This document shows positions 1 through 60,362 of a stretch of DNA of 64,000 nt, one piece after another (position 1 is the stretch's first letter; every line of letters begins with the position of its first letter). The notes below the pieces were generated by a model. It was not told the DNA's origin. It saw only the letters and a program-made list of their open reading frames with translations, and did not search any database. The translations under genes were made by a program, and so were the position numbers. This DNA comes from Hydractinia symbiolongicarpus (taxonomy: Eukaryota > Cnidaria > Hydrozoa > Anthoathecata > Hydractiniidae): the NCBI RefSeq assembly GCF_029227915.1, contig NC_079887.1, positions 21,821,650 to 21,885,649 of the forward strand. Direction: 5' to 3'.

Positions 1-1
1 C

Positions 2-1186
2 AACTTCCTGAATCACAGACAGTCCGGATTTCTAAAACTCTTTTCCACAGAAACTGCAGTAGTCGATGTCTCTGATTTTATTCTTACTGAGCTCGACCAA
101 CATAACTTTGTTTGTGCTGTGCTCATTGACCTTAAAAAAGCTTTTGACACTGTTGATCATAAAATTTTCTTAAAAAAACTATGGTGTTTTGGCATCAGAG
201 ATGCTGCCTTTGACTGGTTCGAGTCCTACTTAACGGGCCGAATGCAGCTGACTCTTGTAAACGACACAGGATCAGATCTGCTTCATGAAGACGCTTTTGG
301 GGTGCCGCAGGAATCTGTGTTGGGGCCCCTGCTCTTTCTTTTGTATATTGATGACTTAAAATCTGTCATCAATTCAAACTACCACCATCTATATGCAGAT
401 GATACAATAATTATTTCGTCTTATAAAAACTTGGATACCCTTGTCTCCCAGGTCGAGTTAGAACTTTCGCAAGTCGACCTCTGGCTGAATAATAACAAAA
501 TGACTATTAATACGGACAAAACTGAAACAATCTTTTTCGGCAACCACAGCCAGTTAAAAAAAGTTGAGAACAAAACTATCAACTATACGGGTATTCCTTT
601 GAAGAGGAGCGAAAAAGTTAAATATCTTGGGGTAACATTTGATCAAAAAATGCAATGGGAAAAGCACATTAATGACATAAATAGAAAAATACTAATTAAA
701 TATTCTAAAATTAGAACCATTGCATCCTGTTTAACACCTCACACAAAAAACCTTTTAATTAATGCACTTTTCATGCCATATTTCAACTACTGCTCCTCGG
801 CATGGGCTTGTGCCACCCAAGGTAGATTAGGAAAACTAGAAAAACGATTAAAATGTGTCCGTACCTTTCTTGGGAAAGAGAGGGAATATTCAATGAATAA
901 TTTACTCATCAAAAACGATGCCATATTAGTTTTCAAAGCCATGAATCACATTGCTCCTGATTACATGCGCTCAAAATTCCTTTTGACAAAAAACTGTCAT
1001 AATCATCAAACAAGAGGAGCTTCGAAAAACAGGTTCACACTTCCCTTGGTCAACACGGAATTTGGCAAAAAAGCCTTCCCATTTAGAGCTGCAAAAGTGT
1101 GGAATAATCTTCCAGACCAAGTGACCTGTGATGGAAGTCTGCTTTCGTTTAAGACTTCCATCTCTAATGTATTTGGCAAATTCTAA
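2..1186 (+). CDS. CR1-like LINE ORF2, reverse transcriptase 3' part (unit 1)
   Basis: This is the reverse transcriptase of a non-LTR retrotransposon, which copies its own RNA at a nicked target site. The reading frame is open from base 2, so the left part, including the endonuclease, lies outside the window. Visible are the palm motif DLKKAFDTVDH, the block PQESVLGPLLF, the catalytic YADDT and the usual C-terminal tail ending NVFGKF. Families of this type normally read PQGSVLGPLLF; the glycine is replaced by glutamate here and in the unit 2 copy, but not in the third copy. The element is followed by a 3' UTR and a (TTA)n tail. Family assignment to the CR1/L2 group is by motif recognition; the 3' part is open but the copy is probably dead, because its near-twin in unit 2 is frameshifted. 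Confidence 0.85.
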   Translation, partial: NFLNHRQSGFLKLFSTETAVVDVSDFILTELDQHNFVCAVLIDLKKAFDTVDHKIFLKKLWCFGIRDAAFDWFESYLTGRMQLTLVNDTGSDLLHEDAFGVPQESVLGPLLFLLYIDDLKSVINSNYHHLYADDTIIISSYKNLDTLVSQVELELSQVDLWLNNNKMTINTDKTETIFFGNHSQLKKVENKTINYTGIPLKRSEKVKYLGVTFDQKMQWEKHINDINRKILIKYSKIRTIASCLTPHTKNLLINALFMPYFNYCSSAWACATQGRLGKLEKRLKCVRTFLGKEREYSMNNLLIKNDAILVFKAMNHIAPDYMRSKFLLTKNCHNHQTRGASKNRFTLPLVNTEFGKKAFPFRAAKVWNNLPDQVTCDGSLLSFKTSISNVFGKF

Positions 1187-1420
1187 TGGAGATCACTTTT
1201 TAACTTTTTAACTTTTGTTTTTTATTCTTTTTCTTTTCAATTTTCACAGATTATAAATGTTACTATGTTTGATTGAGCTGAGGCAGTCTAAGGTTTATCA
1301 TTTTTTGTTTCTTTTTTGTTCTAGTGGCCCCCAGTGGAAACAATCCACTAACTTTAGGTTTTTGTGATTTTCTGGGCTAGCCACTTTAAATATTTATTAT
1401 TATTATTATTATTATTATTT
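1187..1420 (+). repeat. LINE 3' UTR and (TTA)n tail (unit 1)
   Basis: Non-coding 3' UTR of the LINE, ending in a TTA trinucleotide run from about 1391. The same tail is about 54 bp long at 31838-31891 and about 24 bp at 56220-56243. A simple-repeat tail marks the 3' end of the LINE; immediately after it, coding sequence of the interrupted host element X resumes. Confidence 0.75.
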
Positions 1421-1634
1421 AGTTATTGCTGGGATACTTTCACCAGCTATTGACAGTGGAAAAATTCGTCAGGCTACAGCGTTTTATACAGGTGGCATGT
1501 TACACGGGGACCATCCAACATTAGGAAAAGGACCTAAGTTAGAGTGCATGTATTGTTTTGAAACAGACAGTTGTGACACTGTAACTAACGTAATTTCTGA
1601 AATAGGAAGTGTGGCACAAGTAACAACACTGTAA
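1421..1634 (+). pseudogene. Element X, C-terminal part of HIRAN-domain gene (unit 1)
   Basis: Open frame directly behind the LINE tail, ending at TAA 1632-1634. It reads VIAGILSPAIDSGKIRQATA and then a part with GKGPKLECMYCF and a Cys-x2-Cys pair. It joins logically to the HIRAN-domain 5' part that lies on the left of the LINE in the other copies (28568 and 51815), so the LINE appears to have split one gene. Its 5' part is outside the window for this copy. Function unknown. The link to the HIRAN part is inferred from position and strand. Confidence 0.5.
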
Positions 1635-1674
1635 TTATTGAGTTTTATTGAATTTTATTAGGTATAAACATAAA

Positions 1675-1920
1675 ATGGCAAATATATTTGACGAAAATCT
1701 AAACCTAGTCAAAGTAAACAACGCAAATAAAAGAAGAGTGGCTGAACCTGGGTTTAGTGATGGAAAAAAAAGAAAAAGTGGGACAGAGTTTGTTGTGGAC
1801 CAGGCAGCACGTAGTGACTGCTGCTACAAAAGACGGAATGGCATACTAAACAGTATGTCGTTGTTAAAGTTGTGTACAGGTGATGATGTCACTGTTGACT
1901 TTCAACACGCAGTATCGAAA
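1675..1920 (+). pseudogene. Element X, truncated gene (MANIFDEN protein), unit 1
   Basis: A basic, lysine-rich N-terminus starting MANIFDENLNLVKV. I chose the ATG at 1675 because an acceptor-like TTATTAG lies just upstream and the same start fits the complete copy at 56497. The match with that complete copy stops at about 1920, after the residues QHAVSK, where unrelated sequence begins. The downstream PHD-like finger of the full gene is therefore lost. This breakpoint is shared by unit 2 (about 32394). Confidence 0.55.
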
Positions 1921-2816
1921 GCTTCTTTTATTTCATGGATAGAGTGTTTATTTTTGGGAGTTAAGTTTGTAATATTTTGTAATGGTGTGATATTAGGGTT
2001 TATAGTTATGGTCGGTTTAGGTGTAGTAGTGATATCAGAGTTTGTTTTTTTGCAATTTTTTTTCACCTTTCTATATGTCCTGCAGCTGTTGGAAATGTAT
2101 TATTTTCATTGTTTTTTACAAGACATTCGTTACATTTCCGAAGACTGTGTTTAGTTTTGTTGTTTTCTTCCACTTTATCCCATTTATCACTCCCGTAATT
2201 CTTAATATATCCCAGTTTCTCTCGATAGGGCCACTTTTTTTTACGCAGGAAGAGAAGCAAGTTAGAAATTTGACTGAAAAAGTACTTTTCTTCAATTTTT
2301 CCAGATGAGGAAATTGTTCCATAAACTTGGAATATCGTGTTGCCTTTTCTTCAATTTTCAAACTATTTAATACTGCAGCTCTCATGAAATTACATGAAAA
2401 ATATAAGGCCATTGTTGAGCTTATTTGACGCTATATAGTTGCTTGTTTACATATTCATTCTTCGACAAGCTTCCCGGTGACGCGGGGCTGTCAAAAAAAG
2501 CTAAGTCGCGTTGATTTCGATTGTAGTATCCGAGTACGAGCGGCTCGAAGCAAATGTCAATTTTTTTCTTCAGGGTCTAAACACCAGATACGTGGAACAA
2601 ACCTTGTGCCTTATCTTTTCCTAAGACTCCAATAAAACATAGAAAAGTATGGAAAGCTCCATTTTTCTAGTTTTTCGCCCATCGGCTGCGCGTAGAAAAT
2701 TACCAACTTTAGGACTAGCCTTAACTCGCCCGAGCATGCAAATCGGAAAAGTTGCTCACAAATACTATGATTCACGCAAATTTATACCCGTTTTTCGTTG
2801 TTTAATGTTTTTTTAG
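1921..2816. other. Unassigned segment between element X and PHD gene (unit 1)
   Basis: About 0.9 kb absent from the complete copy of X. A weak minus-strand frame at 2063-2260 contains the Cys pair KCNEC, but I recognise no family and give it no function. The part from 2413 to 2816 is non-coding and probably holds an intron or 5' end belonging to the PHD-finger gene that follows. The left edge is a recombination or insertion breakpoint. Confidence 0.35.
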
Positions 2817-21948: not shown

Positions 21949-21952
21949 TTAA

Positions 21953-26951: not shown

Positions 26952-27047
26952 ACCGTTCATTAGTATACGTGTAAAATATCCATGTAAATAATATATGTAT
27001 GAAAATAGTATGTAAATAATTATATAAGCTAAAAAAATAAAAAGTCA

Positions 27048-27421
27048 CTACAGTTTTAATCTGCTATACTTAGCTGATTGCTCAATGATAACTTCACGGT
27101 CTTCTCTCTCTGATGGTGCTACAGTCAAACTGAGCTTACGTTTGCTGCGCTTTTCCGTGGTTACCTTTCTATTTTCTTCAACTCGTGTGATTATATTACC
27201 GAGTATGTCAACAAGGTATATCTGCGGGAATATCTGGTGTTGCATGTCCCAACTTGGATCAAAGCATTTTTCTTCAAAATGTTTTGAACAAACAAAGACC
27301 CTTTTAGGTAAATTTTTTCCCCGCAAAGCATGTATCCACTTTTTGCGCGTATCTTCATTTGAACTTTCTCGGGATTATTAGCCGTATGATTAGTACAACC
27401 TACAGCAGCACACCACGCCAT
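27048..27421 (-). pseudogene. THAP-domain protein, frameshifted (unit 1)
   Basis: Minus-strand start MAWCAAVGCTNH supplies the first Cys pair of a THAP finger. A second frame gives KKWIHALRGKNLPKRVFVCS and HFEEKCF, the second Cys-His pair, followed by a basic tail ending SAKYSRLKL. Between NNPE and SNED the expected FHxFP block is missing and the frame changes, so the finger is probably broken. THAP fingers are the DNA-binding modules of P-element-like and Kolobok transposases. It faces the P2X7-tail gene tail-to-tail. Confidence 0.7.
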
Positions 27422-27894
27422 TTTAAGAAATATCGAAAAAAAGTTTTTGAGCATAAATGTTTTTAAAATATATCGACGGGGGTTAAATTGTATAAAATAA
27501 ATCTAAGTTTCTATTATAAATTATTAATAGGTTTAAGAACAAACTTCGCGTGCGGTGTGTGTGAAGAGGAAGGCTTCTGTATTTTCTATAAAATTGCTTA
27601 CGTCACAGTAAATCGATTATGCTATATCGCACTTGATCGTGTTTTCATCAGAAACTATCATGGCGGTCGAAGAAGGCCACTCTCGTGGCGAAGGTTAAAC
27701 TTTAAAGAACAAAATTGTGCGTAAGAATTACTTTTCAAGATATATTAATGCTGAATTATTGTTTCGTGCTATATGAAGTTTTTAAATGCAAATATTTATA
27801 AAACATGCTATATTCCCTTTAAATCTTTGAATAGGCATTATTAACTTATAAGTGCAAATTAAGGAAAAAAACTTAAGCGAATTTAGGTCAACTA

Positions 27895-28085
27895 AATTTT
27901 TGGTGTCAACTATGACGAAGTTTTCTCACCTGTCGCAAAGTACAGTTCTATTCGTACTGTACTAGCCATTGCCAATCAACTTGATTTAAACCTCCACCAA
28001 ATGGATGTTAAAACAGCATTCCTAAATGGAGATCTCGAGGAAGAGATTTTCGTTAAGCAACCGTCGATTGCGAAAGAGTCTCTAT
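27895..28085 (+). pseudogene. Copia B reverse transcriptase fragment (unit 1)
   Basis: Begins abruptly inside the RT at FGVNYDEVFSPVAKYSS and runs through the catalytic block HQMDVKTAFLNGDLEEEIFV, then is cut by element X in the codons of KSLYGLKQ. The preceding 70 bases are genomic flank, so no LTR, gag or integrase belongs to this piece here. The remainder of the gene appears only at 59968-61064. Confidence 0.85.
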
Positions 28086-41651: not shown

Positions 41652-42102
41652 TGAAACATGCTTACGGGAATTATTTTTTGGTTCATACAGACCTTAAACT
41701 TTTCCTCTCCAATATCAGGGTAATATGAGAATATAATTCTCCCTGTAACTGAGGACAAAGCTAAAAGGCAAAGGAAACTTGACCAGTTTTTGTCATTTAA
41801 ATTTAAGACAGCTTCCTCTTTTATAAGCTCTTCCCCCTCTTTATTGCTGTCACAAGCAACATGGGAAACACAGAAAAATAGAATATTTTTCAGAGAACTG
41901 AAAGAACCTCTCTGCTCTTGAAAGATGGAAGAAAATAGAGGATGATTGGAATAAAAATTTGGGAAGAGAAAAAGTTCCAACGATACCAGAAGTCGTAGCA
42001 AGTCCACCAACATATTGTTACTTCCCAAACACAAGGATGCTGAACTGTATAAACAATTTCCAGAAGCTTCAGATCTACAAAAGTGAACATAAAAAATTTG
42101 TT
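41648..42102 (-). pseudogene. hAT accessory gene, OTU/vertnin-like part (unit 2)
   Basis: Same as 11206-11660 (GNCLYSSAS, NWSSFLCLLALSS). Stop and transposase start overlap as ATGA. First exon at 45149-45307. Confidence 0.5.
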
Positions 42103-42208
42103 CACTTCACTCTACTGCAAATCTACAACAAGAATAACAGCTGGCTCTATTATTGTCATTAAATAGTCTCGATGACCCAAATAGAAACTTTTTGTTTATT
42201 GTAGTGAA

Positions 42209-45144: not shown

Positions 45145-45148
45145 TTAA

Positions 45149-45307
45149 CAACTTTTTCTCAATCTTTCTCCAATGATCTAATGTTCCAAAATGAGGAAAC
45201 TCTGTTATTTTATCTTTCAATATCTTATAAAGACTTTTACATTCGCAAATATCATTGCTTTTTACAGCAAGCACAACCCGATCGCGCAAGCTCCCATCAG
45301 AAGACAT
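45149..45307 (-). pseudogene. hAT accessory gene, first exon (unit 2)
   Basis: MSSDGSLRDRVVLAVKSND to KIEKKL, cut by the piggyBac target. An overlapping plus-strand frame (45306-45434) is the third copy of the YAE1-like short frame. Confidence 0.5.
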
Positions 45308-45961
45308 GTTGGATCAGAAAGAACTTCAGAATTGCAGTTGGCCGAAGCTGGCCGAACCCATTAAACAGACCGGCTACCGCGAGGCAATAACTATAGGAAG
45401 AGTAAATTATTCCTACGCACCCATCGTCTAATATCAATCTTTCTTTCACCGTAAATTTCGACTAAAGAGAGTCCAAAAGTCCACACTTCGGCGAGATTCT
45501 TTTTACGTCACAAATTCTTTTGTTTTAACCAGAGTCCAAAAGTCCACACCTCGGCGAGATTTTTCTCGACGTCATAATTCTTTTGTGTTTCTTTTGTTTA
45601 AGAGAGTCCAAAAGTCCACACCTCGGCAGCCGCCGAAATCGACTGTTTTTACGGCAGAAAACAAAGGAATCGAGAGAAACAAAGTCAGCGAAATGCGGCA
45701 AAATGTAGTTCGACTACCGTAAGAACCATAGTACTTCGGCAAAGAACATCGAAGGAGAGTCGAGCCTCGGCAAACACTCCTGAGTGGAGATAAGAATATT
45801 ACCTCGGATCCTGGGCGCAAAGGAATCTTATTAAACGCTTATAATAAAAATTATGCGTTGCTTTAAATCAATTTCTATATTTAGATACACATGATTTTCT
45901 CATTGGCAAAATTTCTCCTTAGGCGAGTGCCGAAGTGGCCGAAGTCTAAATCCGCCCCCGA

Positions 45962-47101
45962 ATGTATTTAATCGGAAAAGATCTTTGGGAGATTGTAACC
46001 GGTGATGAAACCATAGAGGATGATATGCAGGAGGCTGAGAAACGTCGAATCAAGAAACGCGAGAACCAAGCGTTTGCCGCCATTTGTTTGGGAATTTCAA
46101 CAAACTTACAAATTTACGTTCGCTCCACGAAATCGGCTAAGGAAGCATGGGAAAATCTTGAAAAACATTTTCAGCAAAAAACACTTTCAAAAAGGATTTT
46201 CTATCGGAGAAAATTATATTCAGCAAAGATGGCTAGAGGTCAAAATATGACTGAACACATAAACAACATTAAGACATTGTCAGAACACCTGGAAGCGATT
46301 GATGATGCTGTTGCAGAAAAGGACCTAGTTATTCTTCTTATTAGTAGTTTACCCGAAGAGTATAACTATTTAATAACGGCGCCTGAAACAATTGCTGAGG
46401 ACAATCTAACCTGGGCTTATGTGAGGGACAGGCTTATTCACGAAAGCGAAAAGAAAAAGCCTGCTGAAGCTGAAACTTCTGGTGATGCCCTTTTTTCGTC
46501 AAAGCCCAACAAAAAGAAATCCGGTAAATGTCATTACTGCAAGAAACCAGGACATTATGCTCGTGACTGTTTTAAGAAGAAAAGTGACCAGAAGAAAGAA
46601 AACGCAAATCTCGCTAACGATGATCACGATAATGAACTAGCTCTGAAATCCTCTGAAGGAAACGAGGATGAGTGGTGGATTGACTCTGGTGCTTCTTCTC
46701 ACATGACCCATAATTTGAAAAGCTTAAGAGACTATTCCAGTTTTGAAACGCCTATAAAGGTAAAACTCGCCGATGATCACGTGCTGAATGCTTTCGGGAA
46801 AGGAAATGTACATTTGACCATTTTGAGCAAAAATGAAAAGGTCAAAACTGTGCTACATGACGTACTTTACGTGCCGAAGATCCAAAACAAACTGTTCTCT
46901 CTATCTTACCTAACCGATAAGGGAGTCGATGTGCAGTTCAAAGGCAAGGATTGCGATATCACCAAGGAGGGGAAGCAGTATACTATTGGACATAAGTACG
47001 GTAAACTTTACAAACTTAACACGATAAAGCCACGAAACGAGGAAACGTGCTGTATCGGGAAAACAATCAAACAGGATTCAATCGAGCTGTGCCACCAATG
47101 A
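45962..47101 (+). pseudogene. Copia A gag and protease (unit 2)
   Basis: As 22766-23905: YLIGKDLWEIV, CCHC knuckle CHYCKKPGHYARDC, protease DSGASSHMT, and the same TGA at CHQ. Minor changes include ETIEDD for ETMEDD. Confidence 0.9.
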
Positions 47102-47804
47102 TACGGTCATCTGGGATACGACAACCTCAAACTCTTAAACGATAAAGAGATGGTAAATGGCCTGAATATCGATACCAAGGAAGCCGTCGATCGAATCTGC
47201 GAAGGATGTGCAATGGGGAAACAGCATCGCAAATCATTCCCAAAGAAATCGCAAAGCACCACAACCAGATTGCTCGAGCTGATTCACAGTGACGTGTGTG
47301 GACCGATGGATGTACCTTCAGTGGGAGGTTCCAGGTACTTTGTGACTTTTATAGACGATTTCTCAAGATACACTACTGTCTACATGATGAAGCAAAAGTC
47401 TGAAGTGCTTGAAAAGTTTGGGGAGTTTGTAAACCTTGTTGAAAATCGCACTGGATTGAAAGTCGAACGATCACACGTGGAGAACAAAACTATAAAACGC
47501 CTTCAGATAATGGTGGTGAATACTTCTCAAAGGACTTTGACGAATTCTGCAACAATCGAGGAATTCAACGTGAACCGACCATTCCATACTCTCCACAACA
47601 AAACGGAGTTGCTGAACGCATGAACCGCACCCTACTGGAAACTGCACGATCAATGCTGCATCACGCAAAAAACCCCTTAACCTATGGGCTGAAGCTGTAT
47701 CTACCGCATCCTACACACGGAACCGAAGTCCTACTGCTGCACTGAAGGGAGCAACGCCTTATGTACTTTGGCACGGTAAAAAGCCTGAAGTTAGTGGCCT
47801 GAAA
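47102..47804 (+). pseudogene. Copia A integrase, frameshifted (unit 2)
   Basis: Same motifs (HSDVCGPM, SDNGGEYF, PQQNGVAER) and same frameshifts as unit 1, so these lesions predate the 30-kb duplication. Confidence 0.85.
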
Positions 47805-48466
47805 GTGTTTGGCTGCAAAACGTACGTGCATATTCCCGAATCAAAATGTAATGGAAAACTCCAGAAGAAATCGTTTCCATGCGTTTTTGTTGGATACCCT
47901 GCGAACGAAAACGGGTACAAACTGTACAATCCTGAAACGAGACAGATGCTTCGAAGTCGTGATGTCATCTTCGTAGAGAACGCTTTTGACATCGAAAAAT
48001 CGGACAACGTAACTCACGAATTTTTCACTGGAACATTCAGAGAAGCTGAGGCAGAAGCTGAAACGGAACAACCAGGAAACAACATCGGTGAACCGCAAGT
48101 CGCTGTCGAAGAAGATGCCAGACCACAACGAGCAAGGAGACCACCTGACAGACTGAACGTTCTGACAGGTAATTGGTGGAACCTGATGGAGGTGGCATCG
48201 GTCGCAGCTATGGACACTGAGGAGCCAACGACCATTGAAGAAGCTTTAAGCGGTGTGAACTCAAAGCTATGGTCTGAAGCACTTCGTAATGAATTTGATT
48301 CGCTGAAACAGAACCAAACCTGGGACTTGGTTGACTTACCCCCCGGTAAGAACATTGTTGGCACTAAATGGGTGTTTAAGCACAAACGTGATGCTAAAGG
48401 CGAGATCACCCGGTGTAAAGCTCGTCTACAGGGATACTCTCAAAAACCCGGTGTCGACTATTGGAG
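47805..48466 (+). pseudogene. Copia A integrase C-terminus and RT start, deleted (unit 2)
   Basis: FGCKTYVHIPES to GYSQKPGVDY and then directly into the 3' LTR, the same internal deletion as in unit 1. Confidence 0.9.
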
Positions 48467-48664
48467 TGTTGAAATATGTGACGCTCACTTGCTATCTTTT
48501 ATTTAGTTGTGAACCGGTGGTTCTATTATTTTATGGTAGAACTGTCACGTGCACTATATTACGCACATTTTTTTTTATTCTCTACGTTTTTCTGTGATCA
48601 GCTTGTTTTTTATAAGAGAAAAAGTACTCTATGAGTGAGAAACTCTGTGTGTCTGTTTTTATCA
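48467..48664 (+). repeat. Copia A 3' LTR (unit 2)
   Basis: 198 bp, identical in form to 25271-25468; flank GTGAC. Confidence 0.9.
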
Positions 48665-48789
48665 GTGACTTCTTCTTGATTAGTATCCTCATCTCAGCTT
48701 TCCCAGCTGGAATCCGAGTCAGTACTTGGTTTAGTATTTCGCCTGATAGGCTCAAATTGAAATCCTACCACATTTTCCCTGCTGCTCAT
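48665..48789 (-). pseudogene. P2X7-tail gene N-terminus, older copy (unit 2)
   Basis: MSSRENVVGFQFEPIRR on the minus strand, cut by copia; see 25469-25593. Then about 270 bp of non-coding flank up to the TTAA element. Confidence 0.65.
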
Positions 48790-49391
48790 TTTTTTGTTTG
48801 TTTCACAACTTCTGGGTATTGCAATTGAATGATGATTACTCAACCGAAGTTAGTATTCATTTTCAAAGTTTCCTGAAATTTTCACGGGGTAAATATACTC
48901 ATCACCAATGAATTTCACTAGTAAAGTTTGAGTAAAAAATTCCAATGCGGAAGATGATTTACGATATTCTAAGAGGGGACGTCAGAGCACTCACAGGTGA
49001 AGAAATTTATGAAACAATATGACGGATGGTTTACCTCGTGTCGGAGATGAATTTTTAAAGGGAATATGGCGTGAAAAATTATTTTTACATATATAAACCA
49101 CTTTTCAAAGTCATAAAAGAATATCTAGTTCTTATGTTTTGAAGATAAACAAAAAAAAAACAAACAACATAAAAAGTTTCACATGTTTACATTACAGTCG
49201 CCTTCTTCAACGAGGTCGTTTTAACGCGGTCAGAGATCTGGACAATCACATTAGTATGCGTAATTATGCGACTTACGTAAGCAATTGTATAGAAAAAAAA
49301 GTGAGCCCCCGTAAAAGTAGAAGGTTCTTTTTAGAAAAAATATGTAATGTTTTGAGAAAGTAAATAACAAACATTCATATTAAATTTTATC

Positions 49392-50147
49392 ATGGATCAA
49401 CCAACGGTACTTGGTTTTCAGTTTGAACCAGAATTTCAGGATGATGAAGAACATTCTGAACCTGAAGAATATTCTGATATTTCTTTGGATGATGCGAACT
49501 TGCGAGCTATTACAGCGGAGGGAGATAGGAAAGCTGGGGTCGATGGTTGGTGTACTTGTGGGCACTGCGTCGTATTGGATACGGAAAGAGAGTGCATATG
49601 CTGCCACGAGATAGACGAAATAAAATATTTCAAATTAGACGGTTTGCTTTAGTTTATTTCTATTTACAAAATAAACAGTGAAACAATTACACATACAATC
49701 TAGTACCCAAACCTTTTTTAGATTGCAGATGTATCACTGAGCACGATAGCTTTTCAAACGTTATGCTGGACAGGGGTGTTCTGTGGACTGCTTTGATATC
49801 GTTATATGACAGGGAAAATGCATCTTTACCATGTGATAGGGATAACGTACCTAGCCAGTAAGTAGAGTTATATAAGAACATGTAATATATTATATTATCC
49901 ATAAATGAAATATATAACCTATTTTAGATCATATCGCTACGCATCGTACAGACAGTTTAGTTGGTTCATCCATACTAGGTTGGGACGAGGTGTGCGGAGA
50001 GTCATTCCTGCTTGTGTCGTTGCTAAAATAAGAACAGCCTTCCCTTCTGAAAGTGGTAATTACACTAGGTTTAGAGAGGGAGGAACGAATGTTCCCGAGA
50101 TTGAAATGGTGTGGCAATTTGCAGCTCACGAAGACGAAAGCGACTAA
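49392..50147 (+). CDS. P2X7-tail zinc protein, intact, three exons (unit 2)
   Basis: Exons 49392-49641, 49722-49857 and 49928-50147, giving the same 201-residue protein as unit 1 ([42 protein letters not shown]). No lesion. Preservation in both copies contrasts with the surrounding decay, which suggests a recent insertion or selection for the protein. Confidence 0.8.
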
Positions 50148-50243
50148 ACCGTTCATTAGTATACGTGTAAAATATCCATGTAAATAATATATGTATGAAA
50201 ATAGTATGTAAATAATTATATAAGCTAAGAAAATAAAAAGTCA

Positions 50244-50617
50244 CTACAGTTTTAATCTGCTATACTTAGCTGATTGCTCAATGATAACTTCACGGTCTTC
50301 TCTCTCTGATGGTGCTACAGTCAAACTGAGCTTACGTTTGCTGCGCTTTTCCGTGGTTACCTTTCTATTTTCTTCAACTCGTGTGATTATATTACCGAGT
50401 ATGTCAACAAGGTATATCTGCGGGAATATCTGGTGTTGCATGTCCCAACTTGGATCAAAGCATTTTTCTTCAAAATGTTTTGAACAAACAAAGACCCTTT
50501 TAGGTAAATTTTTTCTCCGCAAAGCATGTATCCACTTTTTGCGCGTATCTTCATTTGAACTTTCTCGGGATTATTAGCCGTATGATTAGTACAACCTACA
50601 GCAGCACACCACGCCAT
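50244..50617 (-). pseudogene. THAP-domain protein, frameshifted (unit 2)
   Basis: Same broken THAP gene as 27048-27421 (MAWCAAVGCTNH, then KKWIHALR, VFVCSKHFEEKCF); differs by G to R before KNLPK. Confidence 0.7.
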
Positions 50618-51138
50618 TTTAAGAAATATCGAAAAAAAGTTTTTGAGCATAAATGTTTTTAAAATATATCGACGGGGGTTAAATTGTATAAAATAAATCT
50701 AAGTTTCTATTATAAATTATTAATAGGTTTAAGAACAAACTTCGCGTGCGGTGTGTGTGAAGAGGAAGGCTTCTGTATTTTCTATAAAATTGCTTACGTC
50801 ACAGTAAATCGATTATGCTATATCGCACTTGATCGTGTTTTCATCAGAAACTATCATGGCGGTCGAAGAAGGCCACTCTCGTGGCGAAGGTTAAACTTTA
50901 AAGAACAATATTGTGCGTAAGAATTACTTTTTAAGATATATTAATGCTGAATTATTGTTTCGTGCTATATGAAGTTTTTATATGCAAATATTTATAAAAC
51001 ATGCTATATTCCCTTTAAATCTTTGAATAGGCATTATTAACTTATAAGTGCAAATTAAGGAAAAAAACTTAAGCGAATTTAGGTCAACTTGATTTTTCTC
51101 GTAAGCTTTAATATCTTTAAAATAGAAATAATCGTGTA

Positions 51139-51332
51139 GTAAATTTTTGGTGTCAACTATGACGAAGTTTTCTCACCTGTCGCAAAGTACAGTTCTATTC
51201 GTACTGTACTAGCCATTGCCAATCAACTTGATTTAAACCTCCACCGAATGGATGTTAAAACAGCATTCCTAAATGGAGATCTCGAGGAAGAGATTTTCGT
51301 TAAGCAACCGTCGATTGCGAAAGAGTCTCTAT
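51139..51332 (+). pseudogene. Copia B reverse transcriptase fragment (unit 2)
   Basis: FGVNYDEVFSPVAKYSS to HRMDVKTAFLNGDLEEEIFV, cut by element X. The upstream flank contains about 55 bases that are missing in unit 1 (TTGATTTTTCTCG and following). Here the rest of the gene is found beyond X at 59968, so this copy of copia B is continuous apart from X. Confidence 0.85.
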
Positions 51333-51814
51333 CAGTTAGGGACAACTGCAAATTAGACTATTTCTCCTAAATAAGCTAGTAACTAAATTAGGAGATTTTT
51401 AATAGCTTAACTTAGAGAGAAAAGTCTATTTAGGAGATGGAATTTTTTAATCGACGATATCTTCGCAATCTTTGTTGGTCGCGCGATTATTTTTACTGTA
51501 CTACTTGCTGACTTAGTCATCTTTGCTTAGGTGAAATTTCATAGAATTTGCATGGCGGATATAAAATGTATACATGAAAACGTGCCCACCAACTAAACTC
51601 GTTTCCAATCGACTAGAAATTATATCTATGTGACTAGAACAAGGTCCGGGGCGAGATTGTCCAAATAGCTTATTTAGTCTATGATAGCGTAATTAGGACA
51701 TCATAGCCTAACTAGTATATTATTTTCCCGCAAAAAAACTGAAGGTTTCGCGCCACAAGTTTCCTTTTTCATTATTATTGAACTTATTAGAAAGTAACAT
51801 ACACGTCTTAAAAA

Positions 51815-52239
51815 ATGGCTAGTTTAGACAATGCTGAACGAAAGTTGTATGCTGATAGATACTGTGAGTATCGTACTCGCCAAGTTTGGCACAGTGAGCA
51901 CGAACATGAGTTTTTTATTGCGTTTTGTGTGATAAATGGTTATCATCATTTTCAAGTTAGAATTGGTATAGAAATGCCAATGACACTAGTTCGGGAGCCA
52001 GAAACTGTATATGACAGCAATGCAATTAAATGATGATGAGGTGACAAAACAGCTAGCTCTAATGATATTTCTTGTCTAATGACAGCTGGTTCTACTATAG
52101 TTAGAGGTTGCAACCCTCTAGAGATTTTTCAAAGTCCATACATGAACTGAATCACGAACTTTTGGATATCGTCGTTAGAGAACGCACAGGAGAAACTGTT
52201 AGGCGCATAGCTGGGCGTACTGTTGGCTGAGTTCCAAAA
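51815..52239 (+). pseudogene. HIRAN-domain gene of element X, 5' part (third copy)
   Basis: MASLDNAERKLYADRYCEYR, then EFFIAFCVINGYHHFQVR and TLVREPETVYDSNAIK, the hallmark end of a HIRAN domain. The first frame stops at TGA after SNAIK. A further frame reads VVRERTGETVRRIAGRTVG and VP before the LINE begins. HIRAN domains recognise DNA ends or damaged DNA. A copy or splicing partner of the C-terminal part is at 56244-56456. Confidence 0.6.
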
Positions 52240-52845
52240 GTTCACATTCCGTGCTTAGCTCTCGTTGGGGTCGGACGTATCTAAACGGTCCGGTCTTGGC
52301 GCGCTAAGTCGAAGAAAGAAAAAAGAAGACTAAAGCTTGAAGAGCTCCTGCTTTGACAGCTAAGTCCTTTTTGATTTATTATATATTGTATTGCCTTCTT
52401 GACTTCATTTATATCTTTTCATTTCTTTAATTTGTTGTTTTGTAAGTTTTTAAATTATTGTCTTTGTTAATAAATTGTTTTTATCCCAGTCAGTTTTTTA
52501 TCCATCTATCTTGCTGTGTTGTGGGTTCCTGCTGCTCCTTCTGTGTAACATCGTAAGGAAATGGGCTTGCCTCAGATCCTGTAAACATAGTTTTGGAAGA
52601 GCACATAACCGTAGAATGATCTCTCTACGACTTAAAAATAACTTTACCAAGGTAGGAAACCCCACATTTACGCTAAAACTGATTTTTGTGTTTGTTGTAT
52701 TTTTGAGCAATACAAAACCTTCGTTCAAAAGTAGCTCACACAACAACAATGAAATGAGTCGACTAGATAGGAGTTTCTTTCTATCTCTTCACTTGATGCC
52801 TGCAATAGAGTTTCTGAAAGCCAGCTCACTCTCCAATTAAAATTA

Positions 52846-53070
52846 ATGGCTTTATCAAAACTTAAGCCAAGCAGGCACAAGTATTTCTATTTTTTAATCC
52901 TCTTGTCAGGGGACATCTGCCTCAACCCAGGTCCTGTTAAGTATTCCTGTTCTTCATGCTTAAAACCTGTGGCAAAAACACACAAAGCACTTTCTTGTGA
53001 CAAGTGTGGATTATGGGCTCATAAAAAATGTGAGCGTATTTCTGATAAAAAAAATATCAACAATTTATGA
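52846..53070 (+). pseudogene. LINE ORF start with 2A-like peptide and PHD-type finger
   Basis: MALSKLKPSRHKYFYFLILL, then SGDICLNPGP (residues 21-30), then a Cys/His finger CSSCLKPV, CDKCGLWAHKKC. NPGP preceded by a hydrophobic stretch and D-I-x-x is the 2A-like ribosome-skipping signature; the usual Glu is replaced by Cys. 2A-like peptides at this place are known from CR1-type LINEs of several invertebrates, where they can also act as signal sequences. A one-base shift after KKNINNL separates this part from the endonuclease frame. Confidence 0.75.
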
Positions 53071-53837
53071 AGACTCCTGAAGATAAACTTTTTTTCGTTT
53101 GCAGTCCCTGTTTTTCTCGAAATTTGCCCTTTGCTAATGAGGAGTCATTTGGTGACGAAATTCCGGACAACATCAATATTACTATTGATGAAAACTTTGA
53201 TTTTGAGGCAATCAGAAATTGGAAGGGCTTAAAAATGGCCCATCTCAACATTGATGGTCTGTCATCCAAACTAGACTATGTTAAACTTCTGCTACATCAA
53301 ACAAAACTTGATGTATTCTCCATCTGTGAAACCAAATTTGATGACACCATCACTGACAATGACGGTAAAATTGATGGCTATGTTTGTTATAGGAATGATC
53401 GGAATAGACGAGGTGGGGGTGTTGTAATTTTTGTTAATGAAAACTTGGATAGCCACCTTTTGAAACACCTTTACTTCAAAAATGTTGAATCACTATGGGT
53501 GAAAGTGTGCCTGAAAAAAACTAAACCTATTTACGTGTGTGGGGTTTACAGGCCACCTGGAGGTAGTGATTTGCAGAGTACCGAAAACCTGTGTACTCAT
53601 TTTAAACAGTGTTTTAACAAGCTCCCAAAAGAAAAAGAAGTTTTTATCTTGGGAGATTTTAACTGTAACATGCTTTCAAAATATGCTCTTTCCTCCAAAA
53701 TAAAGGAATTATGCTCCACTCTTTTCCTAAAACAACATATTACGGAGCCAACTCGTGTTACTGAAAATAGTAGCACTCTTATAGACTTGATACTTTCTAA
53801 CAGTTCTTGTATTTCTAAACTGGTGTCATGGATTTAG
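53067..53837 (+). pseudogene. LINE apurinic-like endonuclease
   Basis: Reads the end of the zinc finger (VCSPCF), then LKMAHLNIDGLSSKLDY, DVFSICETKFDD, RRGGGVVIFVNE, VCGVYRPPGG and FILGDFNCNM, the conserved motifs of APE-type LINE endonucleases. It nicks target DNA to start reverse transcription. The frame ends at KLVSWI, one base out of phase with the following GISDHNL motif. It overlaps the next frame by 10 bases. Confidence 0.9.
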
Positions 53838-56014
53838 GCATCAGTGATCACAATTTAGTTTATGTGATCAGAAAATTCAAAAGGTCAAAATTTGAACCTA
53901 AAACATGCAAGGTTCGTAGCTACAAGAACTTCAGTGAAGAGGCTTTTCTGAAGGACCTCAGGAATTTAGACTGGTCATATTTTAATAATTATGATGACCT
54001 TGATGAAGCATGTGAGAAACTGAATAAAAATGTTAAAACAGTGGCTGACAAACATGCCCCTTTCAAAACACATAGATTTTCTGGCCGTGTTGAGGCATGG
54101 GTCACTGATGAATTAATAATAGCCATCAAAGAAAGAGACTTCTTGAAACGGAAAGCATCAAAAACAAAATCCATCATAGACTGGGAAGCTTTCAAACAAA
54201 AAAGGAACCAGGTAATAGGTCTCAAAAATCGACTTAAAAACGAGTACTATAATGACGTTTTGCAGGAATTTCAAAAACGGCCAAAACAACTTTGGAAAAC
54301 CCTAAAAAAACTGGTTCCTGATAAGTCAGGCAATACTACCTCGATAAAACGAGTAGTCCAAAACGATGGTACAGAAACTTCTCACCCAAAAAAAATTTCC
54401 AACACATTCAATTCATTTTTTGTCGGTGTTGGTGCCAAACTAGCCTCTAAATTTTCTTCTGACACTACTTATGTTAATCCACCTGTTAGCGGACACGATT
54501 TTCGGTGGGCTCGTATTGAGACCAAAAGTGTCGAAAAAATAATTAGTTCACTAAAACTTAATAAAGCTACAGGCTTGGACGGAATTGGTTCAAGACTGCT
54601 AAAAGCAGGTTCGTCAGTTTTAAGTATTTATTTATCAAGTCTTTTCAACAAATCTTTATGTACTGGTTATGTACCTAAATGTTGGAAGACTAAAAGGGTC
54701 TCGCCTATTTTTAAAAGTGGCAATAAAACAGATCCTACTAATTATCGGCCTATATCTATTTTGCCAATTCCTATGAAAATTTTTGAAAAGTTAGTGCATG
54801 AGCAAATGTCTCATTTTATTTCTGAGCACAACTTCCTGAATCACAGACAGTCCGGATTTCTAAAACTCTTTTCCACAGAAACTGCAGTAGTCGATGTCTC
54901 TGATTTTATTCTTACTGAGCTCGACCAACGTAACTTTGTTTGTGCTGTGCTCATTGACCTTAAAAAAGGTTTTGACACTGTTGATCATAAAAATTTCTTA
55001 AAAAAACTATGGTGTTTTGGCATCAGAGATGCTGCCTTTGACTGGTTCGAGTCCTACTTAACGGGCCGAATGCAGCTGACTCTTGTAAACGACACAGGAT
55101 CAGATCTGCTTCATGAAGACGCTTTTGGGGTGCCGCAGGGATCTGTGTTGGGGCCCCTGCTCTTTCTTTTGTATATTGATGACTTAAAATCTGTCATCAA
55201 TTCAAACTACCACCATCTATATGCAGATGATACAATAATTATTTCGTCTTATAAAAACTTGGATACCCTTGTCTCCCAGGTCGAGTTAGAACTTTCGCAA
55301 GTCGACCTCTGGCTGAATAATAACAAAATGACTATTAATACGGACAAAACTGAAACAATCTTTTTCGGCAACCACAGCCAGTTAAAAAAAGTTGAGAACA
55401 AAACTATCAACTATACGGGTATTCCTTTGAAGAGGAGCGAAAAAGTTAAATATCTTGGGGTAACATTTGATCAAAAAATGCAATGGGAAAAGCACATTAA
55501 TGACATAAATAGAAAAATACTAATTAAATATTCTAAAATTAGAACCATTGCAACCTGTTTAACACCTCACACAAAAAACCTTTTAATTAATGCACATGTC
55601 ATGCCATATTTCAACTACTGCTCCTCGGCATGGGCTTGTGCCACCCAAGGTAGATTGGGAAAACTAGAAAAACGATTAAAATGTGTCCGTACCTTTCTTG
55701 GGAAAGAGAGGGAATATTCAATGAATAATTTACTTATCAAAAACGATGCCATATTAGTTTTCAAAGCCATGAATCACATTGCTCCTGATTACATGCGCTC
55801 AAAATTCCTTTTGACAAAAAGCTGTCATAATCATCAAACAAGAGGAGCTTCGAAAAACAGGTTCACACTTCCCTTGGTCAACACGGAATTTGGCAAAAAA
55901 GCCTTCCCATTTAGAGCAGCAAAAGTGTGGAATAATCTTCCAGACCAAGTGACCTGTGATGGAAGTCTGCTTTCGTTTAAGACTTCCATCTCTAATGTAT
56001 TTGGCAAATTCTAA
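53828..56014 (+). CDS. LINE ORF2: endonuclease tail and full reverse transcriptase (third copy)
   Basis: 728 residues, open throughout: GISDHNLVYVI (endonuclease SDH), ATGLDGIGSRLLKAG, NYRPISILP, QSGFLKLFSTETAV, DLKKGFDTVDHKNF, PQGSVLGPLLF and YADDT. The canonical PQGS is kept, unlike the two other copies. Near the end, FRAAKVWNNLP and NVFGKF close the protein. The RT is intact, but upstream frameshifts separate it from the 2A/finger part. Confidence 0.9.
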   Translation: MDLGISDHNLVYVIRKFKRSKFEPKTCKVRSYKNFSEEAFLKDLRNLDWSYFNNYDDLDEACEKLNKNVKTVADKHAPFKTHRFSGRVEAWVTDELIIAIKERDFLKRKASKTKSIIDWEAFKQKRNQVIGLKNRLKNEYYNDVLQEFQKRPKQLWKTLKKLVPDKSGNTTSIKRVVQNDGTETSHPKKISNTFNSFFVGVGAKLASKFSSDTTYVNPPVSGHDFRWARIETKSVEKIISSLKLNKATGLDGIGSRLLKAGSSVLSIYLSSLFNKSLCTGYVPKCWKTKRVSPIFKSGNKTDPTNYRPISILPIPMKIFEKLVHEQMSHFISEHNFLNHRQSGFLKLFSTETAVVDVSDFILTELDQRNFVCAVLIDLKKGFDTVDHKNFLKKLWCFGIRDAAFDWFESYLTGRMQLTLVNDTGSDLLHEDAFGVPQGSVLGPLLFLLYIDDLKSVINSNYHHLYADDTIIISSYKNLDTLVSQVELELSQVDLWLNNNKMTINTDKTETIFFGNHSQLKKVENKTINYTGIPLKRSEKVKYLGVTFDQKMQWEKHINDINRKILIKYSKIRTIATCLTPHTKNLLINAHVMPYFNYCSSAWACATQGRLGKLEKRLKCVRTFLGKEREYSMNNLLIKNDAILVFKAMNHIAPDYMRSKFLLTKSCHNHQTRGASKNRFTLPLVNTEFGKKAFPFRAAKVWNNLPDQVTCDGSLLSFKTSISNVFGKF

Positions 56015-56243
56015 TGGAGATCACTTTTTAACTTTTTAACTTTTGTTTTTTATTCTTTTTCTTTTCAATTTTCACAGATTATAAATGTTACTATGTTTGA
56101 TTGAGCTGAGGCAGTCTAAGGTTTATCATTTTTTGTTTCTTTTTTGTTCTAGTGGCCCCCAGTGGAAACAATCCACTAACTTTAGGTTTTTGTGATTTTC
56201 TGGGCTAGCCACTTTAAATATTTATTATTATTATTATTATTTA
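56015..56243 (+). repeat. LINE 3' UTR and (TTA)n tail (third copy)
   Basis: Same 3' UTR as elsewhere with the shortest TTA run (about 24 bases). Confidence 0.8.
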
Positions 56244-56456
56244 GTTATTGCTGGGATACTTTCACCAGCTATTGACAGTGGAAAAATTCGTCAGGCTACA
56301 GCGTTTTATACAGGTGGCATGTTACACGGGGACCATCCAACATTAGGAAAAGGACCTAAGTTAGAGTGCATGTATTGTTTTGAAACAGACAGTTGTGACA
56401 CTGTAACTAACGTAATTTCTGAAATAGGAAGAGTGACACAAGTAACAACACTGTAA
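56244..56456 (+). pseudogene. Element X, C-terminal part of HIRAN gene (third copy)
   Basis: VIAGILSPAIDSGKIRQATA, GKGPKLECMYCF, ending at VTQVTTL. Resumes directly after the LINE tail. Confidence 0.5.
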
Positions 56457-56496
56457 TTATTGAGTTTTATAGAATTTTATTAGGTATAAACATAAA

Positions 56497-57167
56497 ATGG
56501 CAAATATATTTGATGAAAATCTAAACCTAGTCAAAGTAAACAACGCAAATAAAAGAAGAGTGGCTGAACCTGGGTTTAGTGATGGAAAAAAAAGAAAAAG
56601 TGGGACAGAGTTTGTTGTGGACCAGGCAGCACGTAGTGACTGCTGCTACAAAAGACGGAATGGCATACTAAACAGTATGTCGTTGTTAAAGTTGTGTACA
56701 GGTGATGATGTCACTGTTGACTTTCAACACGCAGTATCGAAAGTGAAAAAATTATATGGCACATGCCCAGCTTTGATTTTTGAGAAAAAGTTGCACAGCA
56801 CTCAACACGAACTTCAACCCAGAATCAGCCACCCACTGTTTTGAATTCGATAGAAATGGAACAACATACACCCACACGAAATAATACAAATTTAGACAAT
56901 GTACTAAGTTTTTTGACACCTTCTTCCCTTACTGTAACAGAAAACGAGATAGATGAAAATACATGTAAAATGTGTAATGAAAAACACAATACTGACAATG
57001 ACTTAGATTCCCCTTGGATTGGATGTAGTGCAAGAGATTGCAAATATTGGGTGCATGTAATATGCATTGGGTTCAGCCAACAAAATGTTCAAAAGTTTGG
57101 CGATTTTTGGTGTCCAACTCATATGAAAAGACACATTGTCAAGGCAGCATCAAAATTAAAGCGATAA
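56497..57167 (+). pseudogene. Element X, MANIFDEN/PHD-like gene, frameshifted
   Basis: First frame MANIFDENLNLVKV to LQPRISHPLF (56497-56844). Second frame (from about 56841) has a PHD-like finger: CKMCNEKH, WIGCSARDCKYWVHVICIG, WCPTHMKRH. The frames overlap by four bases and probably form one gene broken by an indel. The basic N-terminus (KKRKSG) could be nuclear targeting. Role unknown; PHD fingers may guide the element to chromatin. Confidence 0.55.
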
Positions 57168-57225
57168 GTTAATTTTTGTCATTTTATTGAGTGTTCTTAG
57201 GTTTTTTTTTAATTTCTTCAATTTT

Positions 57226-59645
57226 TTAATTTAATTTAAATTTCTGTTGATATATGTACTTATATATATGATGAATGATTTCATTACCTAATATGATATT
57301 ACGTGATCCTGCATCATCTTTTAAATCTAATAAATTTGATGTGTTCTCATAAATTCGATCAAAAGCATCTACACATCGAGAAATGCGTTGCAAAGTACTT
57401 TTATCAACACTCCCTTTTGGTGCCATCATCTTTTGTCGTTTAATTTTTTGTTCCATCAAAAAATCCCCACCTTGATTTCTGCCTTTTGTCTTAGTAAATG
57501 AAAAAGATGAATTTTTGTCTCTCTGTTCTTTTACTTGAGGTGGGTAAATCGCTTTGTTTTGCAAATCCCTGTATTCGATTTCTCGGTAATACGGATGATT
57601 AAAGCCAAAGAACCAGTCATCAAACGAATATCGACCAGCATCACTGATAATGATATCATTATTACGGTCCCCTACTCTCTGTGTATAAATCCCCAAACCG
57701 TATGTTAAAACAAGCTGCAATATAAGTTTAACTGTTGGTGCATTTATTTTGTGTTGCCATTGCATGAAACCCATAGCACTAACATTATCGCTTTCTTGAG
57801 AGTATTTGTAAACTGTTCTAACATAGTTCCATGTAAAAAAACCTCAAAAGCTTCCCATGCTTTGTGGTTGTCTTTACAGTCTTTGAAGAATGAATATGCC
57901 TTTGGAGATTTGAAATTTAGGATATCTCGGCCCAGGGGCTCTAAACATATGTTGTCAAGAACCTTAAAGTATCCTTTTACCTAAAAGAGAAATAGTTGAT
58001 TTTATTATTATTTAGTAACATCTATATTATATTATAAAAACACAAAAAATATATTTATGATGTATGATACTTGTAATATATATTTATATATATATACATA
58101 TTTTTAGAAAAGATGCATTTTCTTTTAGAAGCAGTTAAATCTTCTTTCACTTATTAAAAAAAATTGTTTGCATACCTGGTTCATATTCAAATGTCCCAAG
58201 CCTGGCAGCAACGTGATCCAATCAAATTCATATTTATCTGCCTCAATTAATCGACTTGTCATGACATAAGGTGGCCCATCACAGCCCGAATATGTCCAAA
58301 ATCTGTCTTTTGAAATGTTTAGGTAACTTTTTAGCTGCGTAAGGATAGTTTTCAAGTTGTCGTAACTGTTTGGATTACATAATATGGGCTCTCCAACCTG
58401 AATAAATGGGTAGTTACAGCTCGATTTTTCTCCAAGGTTTAGATATTTTTCACCAAGTGAGGTTGTTCGACTTAATTTTTGAGGTTCCTCATTGATTTTC
58501 TTTACCACTGAACTACACACATCACAAACTCGTTTGCATCTGTCATATGTCTTTCCACATTCCTACATTAAACAGAAAACAAATAAGGTAAGACAAACAA
58601 TACACAACATTTCCAGAACCTGTTTAAAATCTCTAAAACAGGTTAAACCAAAAAAGTACGAGTATTTGAAAAATAGCCTACCTCATTTATACATCGACGT
58701 TTCTGAAAAGTTAGTAAATCTGAGATGCGTTTACTTATGTCACTTGTTTCACTTTTAAATAACTGAATCATGATCACCTTGTAAACAAATGTGTAGTGTT
58801 GACGTTATAATATCTACACCTGAATATTTCTCCTTTGATATATGGTGGTTACGTACTATATACTTCCCTATGTTGTCAAAGTAGGTTTCTACGTCTCCGG
58901 TGGGTTTTTTAACATTTCACTACCAACATCTTTTAACCAAGTTAGGTACGATGAATAACCACCAGCTGGGTAAATCTTTCCATTTATTGTTGTTACAATT
59001 TTTGATTTCGAAATACATGACTGGATCAGATTAGAAACAAATGAATGAGGAAGTATCCAATTAAAATTTACTAAGAAATATATATTCTCGATTAGCGATG
59101 CAAGATAAAATATTGTGGCAGAATCCCCTTCATTTTTCAAGTTTCGACCTGACACTCCCTCTATAAAGGACACCAGAATGCTTTCCCTTTGGAATATAAA
59201 CTCCTTTGGATCAAGTTCACACAAATATGATATGTTTTTATAACTTTTACTTAAGTGTTGCCCATCACAACAAGAACTCTCTTCCCAAGATAATAAAACA
59301 GCAGTACCCATTTAGTATCGGATATGTCAATAATAGCTTCAGACAAAAAAGTAATTAATCTGTCAATCAAATACTCCATGCTGTTACCATCAAAGAACGC
59401 TGATGGACAATTTTTGTCATCGTCAGATTTCGTTTTTATCATGTACTCAGTCATTGAAATGCATGCTTTGCAGAGGTAGAGAGCTCTATCTGGGATGTAT
59501 TTATGCAGCCGCAGATAACCCACTACACTAGATTTGACTTTAGCTCTTTCTATATGATAAACTGGATTACATTTATTTTTATTTTGAAAAGATACCAAAC
59601 GTCGTGATCAGTACATTTGCAAAGCGCGTTTATCCCATCCGCCAT
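57226..59645 (-). pseudogene. Element X, large minus-strand gene of unrecognised family
   Basis: Likely exons 58778-59645, 58682-58762, 58176-58562 and 57226-57980, with GT-AG borders. Start MADGINALCKCTDHDVW; later VVGYLRLHKYIPDRALYLCK, YFDNIGKYIVRNHHIS, ECGKTYDRCKRVCDVC, RFWTYSGCDGPPYVM, FDWITLLPGLGHLNMNQ, then GYFKVLDNICLEPLG, FFGFNHPYYREIEYRD and KIKRQKMMAPKGS. At least three frameshifts occur (near 59590, 59280, 58895), plus one near 57770. By size and position this is the best candidate for the transposase; the acidic/His motifs CDGPPY and PGLGH recall the layout of KDZ/DUF6589-like transposases, but that is inference. Confidence 0.55.
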
Positions 59646-59967
59646 CTTTTTTTAAATCAAAATAGTCTATTTGGGCGGTTTTTTAAAACACGCCGGAAAA
59701 AAACGTTGTGCGCATGCGGATCAGTGGCATAACAAACTAAAAGCAATATCTTAAAAACGCACCATAACATTTACGAAAATAATACTTCTACGTCCGTGGG
59801 AGGTTTGTTAGATCATTTTGAACCTTAAAGATCGGTGCGACCACGAACCAGAAGACTGTAATAAGCAAATTTAGTGCTGATAGCCTAGTTAGGAGATAAA
59901 TTTCGCCTAATTTGTCTATCATAGCCTATTTAGGCGGAATAGTCTAATTTGCAGTTGTCCCTAACTG
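59646..59967. repeat. Element X right end, subterminal repeats and TIR
   Basis: Non-coding. From 59880 it is composed of GCCTAGTTAGGAG, CGCCTAATTTG, GCCTATTTAGGCGG and finally the inverted terminal repeat ending CAGTTGTCCCTAACTG. The same motifs fill the left end (28086-28480, 51333-51730). Confidence 0.8.
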
Positions 59968-60362
59968 TCTATGGCTTGAAACAGTCTGCACGATGCTGGA
60001 ACAAAACCATCGACGAATACCTCAAGGAATCAGGATACATACAAAACGATGCTGACCCTTGCATCTATCTCAAACGATTCATCAAGGACGGACAGGAAGT
60101 TATCCTCCTTATTGCTGTATACGTCGACGACCTGCTGATTGCATCAAAGTACGACAAAGAACTCCTCTCCGAAAAGCAACAGATAGGTGAACGTTTCGAA
60201 ATGGGTGACGAAGGGGAAGTTCACTACATTCTTGGGATGGCCGTCAAACGAAACCGTAAGGATGGAGTACTTACAATCGACCAACACGCGTTTTTATCAT
60301 CTGTGCTGAAACGATTTGAAATGGAAGATTGCAAGCCAGTAAGCTACTCCACTCGAACCTAA
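59968..60362 (+). pseudogene. Copia B reverse transcriptase, C-terminal part
   Basis: Continues from element X with TVYGLKQSARCWNKTIDEYL, then VILLIAVYVDDLLIASKYD (catalytic YVDD) and VHYILGMAVKR. Ends prematurely at VSYSTRT because of a small insertion near 60343; the correct frame goes on with LEPNTKFKKLRDDEKP. Confidence 0.9.

Follow-up and report, generated by a model that had tools for sequence, protein, structure and literature searches.

In RAG-like (RAGL) transposons, the transposase gene RAG1L is convergent with RAG2L, which bears a PHD finger, and insertion leaves target site duplications (TSDs) of 5 bp (PMC7204232), while TET/JBP-carrying fungal transposons keep a dioxygenase helper gene next to the transposase gene (PMC12730594). 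The latter source also counts 24 DNA-transposon superfamilies in Repbase, describes a CMCT clade with 5'-CA..TG-3' ends, TSDs of 2 to 5 bp and the motifs C(2)C and H(3-4)H between the second D and the last E, and gives the TSD of hAT elements as 8 bp, or 5 bp in hAT5 (PMC12730594). Here we describe Element X, at positions 51333-59967 of a stretch of 64,000 nucleotides (hereafter, the window) on contig C13 (NC_079887.1, 21,821,650 to 21,885,649) of the 480.9-Mb, 76-contig genome of Hydractinia symbiolongicarpus. Very probably, it is a dead copy of a cut-and-paste DNA transposon with three genes, in which a large protein would be the DDE transposase and a PHD and a HIRAN protein its partners. 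The family has moved in the past with 5-bp staggers, and the three-gene set has been kept in diverged families. On sequence comparison, we take the lineage to be of superfamily level and, within the Pfam scans and the literature searched, undescribed. That literature gave no description of a transposon joining a transposase with PHD and HIRAN genes, and no eukaryotic transposon kit was evident from the titles and abstract openings of papers on HIRAN domains and transposons.

Element X lies within a copia gene. Its terminal inverted repeats (TIRs; 5'-CAGTTAGGGACAACTG), at 51333-51378 and 59922-59967, are identical over 30 bp and 93% complementary over 46 bp. Once the flanks are joined, the copia reverse transcriptase is restored in a single frame, ...RKSLYGLKQSARCWNKTIDEYLKESGYIQNDADPCIYL. 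An earlier note, made from the letters of this DNA alone, had reported the perfect 30-bp TIRs, the TCTAT duplication, the clean copia restoration and a HIRAN, a PHD-like and a minus-strand gene, with three motifs quoted from the last; all of these were found in place. The element is made up of the following parts:

51328..51332, no strand: target site duplication, left copy (TCTAT), read from the sequence
51333..51378, plus strand: left terminal inverted repeat (CAGTTAGGGACAACTGCAAATTAG...), from the TIR comparison
51815..52242, plus strand: HIRAN gene, first part, broken and interrupted by a long interspersed nuclear element (LINE), placed by the 183-aa version in the relative L034
56243..56456, plus strand: HIRAN gene, second part, matching residues 114-183 of the L034 protein at 100% identity
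56497..57167, plus strand: PHD gene, with its frame broken in the window, a conserved basic N-terminal block and a C-terminal PHD finger (226 aa in L034)
57274..57980, minus strand: putative transposase exon 3, which has lost its 3' part (318 bp fewer than in L034)
58176..58562, minus strand: putative transposase exon 2, with the second aspartate in CDGPPY; LLPGLGHLNMNQ
58682..59645, minus strand: putative transposase exon 1 (137 bp missing compared with L034)
59922..59967, minus strand: right terminal inverted repeat, from the TIR comparison, its end having 41 genome matches as a lower bound
59968..59972, no strand: target site duplication, right copy (TCTAT), read from the sequence

The intact relative, L034 (contig C4, locus 1476-6503; 5028 bp), has its own 5-bp TSD and is 96.4 to 98.5% identical to the window copy per block, LINE excluded (97.7% over the left 704 bp). 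All three of its genes are open, coding for a HIRAN protein of 183 aa, a PHD protein of 226 aa and, in convergent orientation, a protein of 818 aa whose gene has three exons with GT-AG introns. To part of this last protein, the homologue P0017 (LOC130641092 of H. symbiolongicarpus) is 100% identical. The L034 HIRAN protein matches HIRAN (PF08797) with 35.8 bits (E 7e-9), above the curated cut-off of 24.7 bits, and its counterpart in a relative on C14 falls below that cut-off (15.5 bits, E 0.015). The PHD protein of L034 matches PHD with E 4e-4, at 20.8 and 22.4 bits (below the cut-offs of 24 and 23.9, respectively), and the nearest solved finger is that of a KDM7 homologue (E 6e-4). Tryptophans W177 and W188, which at equivalent positions form the methyl-lysine cage of other PHD fingers, are kept in the PHD proteins of both Element X and the C14 relative, and the C14 HIRAN and PHD genes are open, as in L034. 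Both domains, HIRAN and PHD, typify nuclear proteins of the host, and one might suspect host genes lying by chance between two TIRs. We consider this extremely unlikely, and rejected it because relatives repeat the three-gene set: L034 contains these three genes, enclosed by the same TIRs and a TSD of its own, and the set recurs in diverged elements.

The genome-wide search for TIR and TSD that the earlier note had proposed gave at least 41 matches to the right end of Element X (148 bp), a lower bound because only 40 of 141 candidates were scored. From the right-end places, 50 loci were cut, 20 of them larger cuts of the same places. A gapped end-finder anchored on CAG/CTG left 24 of these 50 without an end pair, and the other 26, together with the window, reduced to 15 distinct insertions, 13 with a perfect 5-bp TSD, one with a single mismatch and one without a TSD. 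With a cruder, ungapped end-finder, a perfect 5-bp TSD was seen at 12 of 18 distinct places, window excluded; four of its six misses went unpaired by the gapped finder, which also lost its hit L006. The rate of 5-bp TSDs in the family is far above chance, and TIRs with a TSD of fixed length occur in several independent copies, as in TIR DDE cut-and-paste transposons. Except for L034, the window copy and one copy of 1430 bp, the two-ended copies are internally deleted and only 429 to 847 bp long. L022/L050 and L047 have a common flank and the TSD ACTGA, one of them with a LINE beside the internally deleted copy; the pair is probably a segmental duplication that followed insertion.

To locate the gene set across the genome, we used as queries the L034 exon-1 protein (32 matches), the L034 PHD (27 matches) and HIRAN (29 matches) proteins and the PHD (33 matches) and HIRAN (27 matches) proteins of C14 relatives, which merged into 21 transposase, 25 PHD and 30 HIRAN places. 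The PHD gene adjoins 11 of the 21 transposase places, always downstream and on the opposite strand, and HIRAN adjoins 12, six times downstream on the opposite strand and six times upstream on the same strand; both partners are found at 10 and neither at 8. Five more transposase places were added by a full-length C14 transposase query (55 matches): one at C14:12.80 Mb with all three genes, the PHD gene convergent, one at C13:21.91 Mb with HIRAN only, and three without either. The earlier note had asked whether the three genes always travel together. They do at 11 of the 26 transposase places, though at another 11 neither partner was detected. Where the PHD gene was found it is convergent with the transposase without exception (12 of 12), and HIRAN lies within 9 kb of 19 of the 25 PHD places, compared with 0.03 expected at random (three are copies of one C13 duplication). 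HIRAN has switched sides of the transposase yet stayed, with the orientation of the PHD gene constant.

These counts bear on the idea that the two partners are passenger genes, cargo captured without a role in transposition, which would suit the placement of HIRAN on either side, a convergent pair on C10 without detected HIRAN and the 8 of 21 places where both are missing. We regard it as rather unlikely, considering that both genes can still be recognised beside transposases of only 30 to 40% identity and have open frames in L034 and C14, that the PHD orientation never varies and that HIRAN and PHD places coincide so far above random expectation. As a separate observation, three and two HIRAN matches lie upstream of a diverged transposase at C7:22057332-22063086 and C7:32718564-32722114, respectively, with PHD undetected.

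The case for a transposase comes from a homologue of the 818-aa protein, which has a predicted RNase H-like DDE fold that matches P element, Hermes, HIV integrase and RAG1, with Z scores for P element and Hermes above that for RAG1. Foldseek alone gave no significant hit, and it was a second look with VIA-align that was informative. Acidic residues D, D and D/E are conserved across the homologues, the third assigned tentatively; in L034 numbering the candidate triad would be D285, D468 and D675 or E679. The earlier note had suggested looking for an RNase H fold and DDE residues, and the fold predicted for the homologue and the conserved acidic positions agree with both. We infer from this model that the large protein is a DDE transposase. 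Its sequence points to no named family. Full Pfam lists (E <= 1) of 12 homologues (nine homologues, L034, the C14 protein and P0014) hold no known transposase family and no hAT, P, MULE, KDZ, Plavaka or RAG1; none of the best 25 of 47 weak Pfam families found for all 26 homologues is a transposase family; and a PDB sequence search with the transposase profile returned no transposase, only five weak matches, all to adenylate kinase at the zinc knuckle. These results speak against Element X belonging to a named superfamily, for instance a hAT group with 5-bp TSDs or a hydrozoan family in Repbase, which we think less likely than not. The initial reading as a multi-gene TIR transposon is supported by the predicted fold, the acidic positions, the recurrent TIRs and TSDs and the gene set. 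Of the two findings that the earlier note had named as refuting it, a described superfamily and host genes between TIRs, neither turned up in the sources searched: the 12 Pfam lists are free of known transposase families, and the genes recur within related elements.

The nearest sequence family is DUF6589 (PF20231), with 17.7 bits (E 0.0016) for L034 and 25.7 bits (E 5.6e-6) for the best homologue, P0001, both short of the cut-off of 27 bits. Matches to it at E <= 1 come from only 3 of the 26 homologues, the C14 protein has none, and among nine homologues the precomputed Pfam assignments give PF20231 for P0001 only. In the literature searched, no paper named DUF6589. Since it is the nearest family to the putative Element X transposase, the comparison suggests a transposase function for the so far uncharacterised DUF6589 group, which differs in forming its own repeated group in the genome (101 matches); when the 42 PHD or HIRAN places were compared with 97 of the 101 DUF6589 starts, none lay within 18 kb. 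DUF6589 proper appears as open frames of about 600 aa with near-equal scores on many contigs (e.g., C2:14846446, C13:20030830, and C5:27905958) and is probably another transposon family of Hydractinia. An open frame of 1063 aa that holds DUF6589 was seen at C2:27297087, C2:35094948, C2:35326706, and C9:26499572, three with equal scores and one similar with a stop, and this fusion may be a recently active element.

Element X resembles RAGL/ProtoRAG elements in its TIRs, its 5-bp TSD and the convergent arrangement of the transposase and PHD-finger genes (PMC7204232). It differs from them in having no RAG1 Pfam family, TIRs that begin with CAGT and not with CAC (as in the heptamer of the recombination signal sequence) and an extra HIRAN gene. 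The RAGL partner combines Kelch repeats with the PHD finger, and the 226-aa PHD protein of L034 has no Kelch match; furthermore, the conserved zinc knuckle falls after the first aspartate and before the second, not beyond the second. Because termini, zinc motif and Kelch domain differ, the parallel looks like convergence. That Element X is a distant RAG-like or Transib relative, with transposase and PHD partner of common ancestry, is very unlikely: besides these differences, P element and Hermes have the higher Z scores, and the second aspartate is followed by neither a conserved C(2)C nor a conserved H(3-4)H.

The 5'-CA..TG-3' ends and a TSD within 2 to 5 bp are also those of the CMCT clade (PMC12730594), from which Element X differs in that neither C(2)C nor H(3-4)H lies between the second D and the last E. 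The cysteines found in at least 80% of rows (427, 432, 443, and 446) all precede D527, and of the histidines after it (556, 600, and 688) none are 3 to 4 residues apart, a test that depends on the inferred third acidic residue. No hAT family appears in the 12 full Pfam lists, and the TSD of 5 bp agrees with the hAT5 exception only. KDZ elements (Zisupton, with an 8-bp TSD) differ in TSD, and the Pfam scans of the homologues have no KDZ match. The P element has an 8-bp TSD and a THAP domain; the TSD of Element X is 5 bp, and there is no THAP match in the L034 Pfam scan. Membership of CMCT, RAGL, hAT, P and KDZ was rejected on these termini, TSD, motif and Pfam tests. Having a gene for chromatin or DNA modification beside the transposase is a likeness to the TET/JBP-carrying fungal transposons as described (PMC12730594), with a PHD and a HIRAN protein as helpers here instead of a dioxygenase.

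In the mechanism that we propose, the transposase would cut both ends of the element and attach the 3'-OHs to the target strands with a stagger of 5 bp. As a chromatin-reading partner, the PHD protein would tie the complex to marked chromatin; its basic N-terminal block, which is conserved, might also contact DNA, perhaps at AT-core boxes set at intervals near the ends. Excision would leave free 3' DNA ends, to which the HIRAN protein would bind by analogy with HLTF, whose HIRAN domain binds 3' DNA ends (PMC7214843).

The candidate boxes recur between Element X and the diverged C14 family (L051), whose right end, read from outside, is CAGTCAGGGAAATCC, adjoining LINE sequence, and whose left end was looked for and not found. 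The TIR starts with CAGTTAGGG in Element X and with CAGTCAGGG at the single C14 end seen, and the two share little beyond the subterminal boxes. Boxes resembling CYTAAWTARG are located 17, 35, 52, 75, and 95 bp from the C14 end, 34, 51, 74, and 93 bp from the left end of Element X, and 34, 53, and 75 bp from its right end, which is without a box near 94; at 17 bp both ends of Element X have only the weaker CAAATTAGAC. In the window they correspond to two features:

51366..51434, no strand: left subterminal AT-core boxes, CArG-like, about 34, 51, 74, and 93 bp from the end, measured on L034
59883..59934, no strand: right subterminal boxes with an AT core, some 34, 53, and 75 bp from the end and including a perfect CCTAAATAGG, from the L034 right end

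The CArG-like boxes were spotted by eye before counting, and the box pattern was chosen after looking. When CCW6GG is allowed one mismatch at most, the counts of the X left, X right, and C14 right ends are reached in 3, 45, and 0 of 1000 shuffles, respectively. In the interior, 3 of 100 shuffles reach the 13 sites of Element X and 74 of 100 the 7 sites of C14. For CYTAAWTARG in the first 110 bp the corresponding figures are 17, 101, and 0 of 1000, so that the X right end is not significant, and GCW6GG, a related pattern, has much the same score as the CArG-like one. Taken by shuffles, support for the boxes is mixed: good for C14, fair for the left end of Element X and weak for its right end, with the X interior somewhat enriched too.

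A MADS-like nature was considered for the PHD protein. The MADS box (SRF-TF, PF00319) reaches about 13 bits against a cut-off of 26 (E 0.066 for the window X fragment and E 0.057 for the C14 fragment), matches that fall short of significance with a library of 24,736 models, and SRF-TF has no match in the L034 fragment (E <= 10) or in the full PHD proteins (E <= 1). MCM1 gives E 0.62, and against a small MADS profile the scores of two paralogues are equalled by 12 and 5 of 5000 shuffles. A PDB search with a 70-residue fragment of the block found no match, and a two-sequence model of the PHD protein gave no usable fold (predicted local distance difference test score, 28.6). A bolder reading would make Element X an undescribed superfamily with a three-part transpososome, in which a DUF6589-like DDE transposase joins a MADS-like/PHD protein sitting on spaced CArG-like arrays at both ends and on H3K4-methylated chromatin, and HIRAN holds the excised 3' ends, an independent version of the RAG1-RAG2 plan in a cnidarian. 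We offer it as a speculation, doubtful as it stands.

The earlier note overlooked the nested LINE, the decay of the window copy and the tandem duplication around it. The LINE makes up 4.0 of the 8.6 kb of Element X, is flanked by AGTT on both sides and splits the HIRAN gene; it has a reverse transcriptase match (RVT_1, E 4e-35) and its own PHD-like finger (PHD, E 1e-5). As a part of Element X it was ruled out, because it is absent from the intact L034. Within it, the region 52771-53070, upstream of the reverse transcriptase part, holds a PHD/C1-like finger and a GDICLNPGP stretch, which we take to resemble a 2A self-cleaving peptide. Compared with L034, the minus-strand gene of the window copy has two deletions (318 and 137 bp), and the copy contains frame breaks; judged by these it is a dead pseudogene. 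The FDNIGKY stretch of exon 1, which holds the first aspartate, is retained and out of frame with the start. Two further partial copies of the Element X insertion in the window come from tandem duplication, and the leftmost extends beyond the window, with HIRAN matches at C13:21818648-21819085. Positions 1-51097 are a nest of tandem duplications of 98 to 99.9% identity that carry remnants of Element X along (for example, 16708-27901 equals 39905-51097). The corresponding features are:

52243..56242, plus strand: nested non-LTR retrotransposon (LINE) with a PHD/C1-like finger and a reverse transcriptase, from RVT_1 and PHD matches; missing from L034
28086..32394, plus strand: second copy of the Element X insertion, right-truncated, with the same LINE, from tandem duplication
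1..1921, plus strand: third copy of the Element X insertion, right-truncated, with the LINE 3' part, the HIRAN 3' part and the PHD 5' part

The set-up of Element X recalls the ancestor of the system that shuffles antibody genes, and it touches on an old question, namely why a chromatin-reading PHD protein accompanies the RAG recombinase, and whether the partnership came about by chance. A transposon lineage that is separate and has this gene arrangement, together with a protein that would bind DNA ends, offers an independent comparison. Should transposition need both partners, reading chromatin and protecting ends would be recurrent solutions and not peculiarities of RAG, and the intact L034, in a laboratory hydroid, makes the question of the partners testable.

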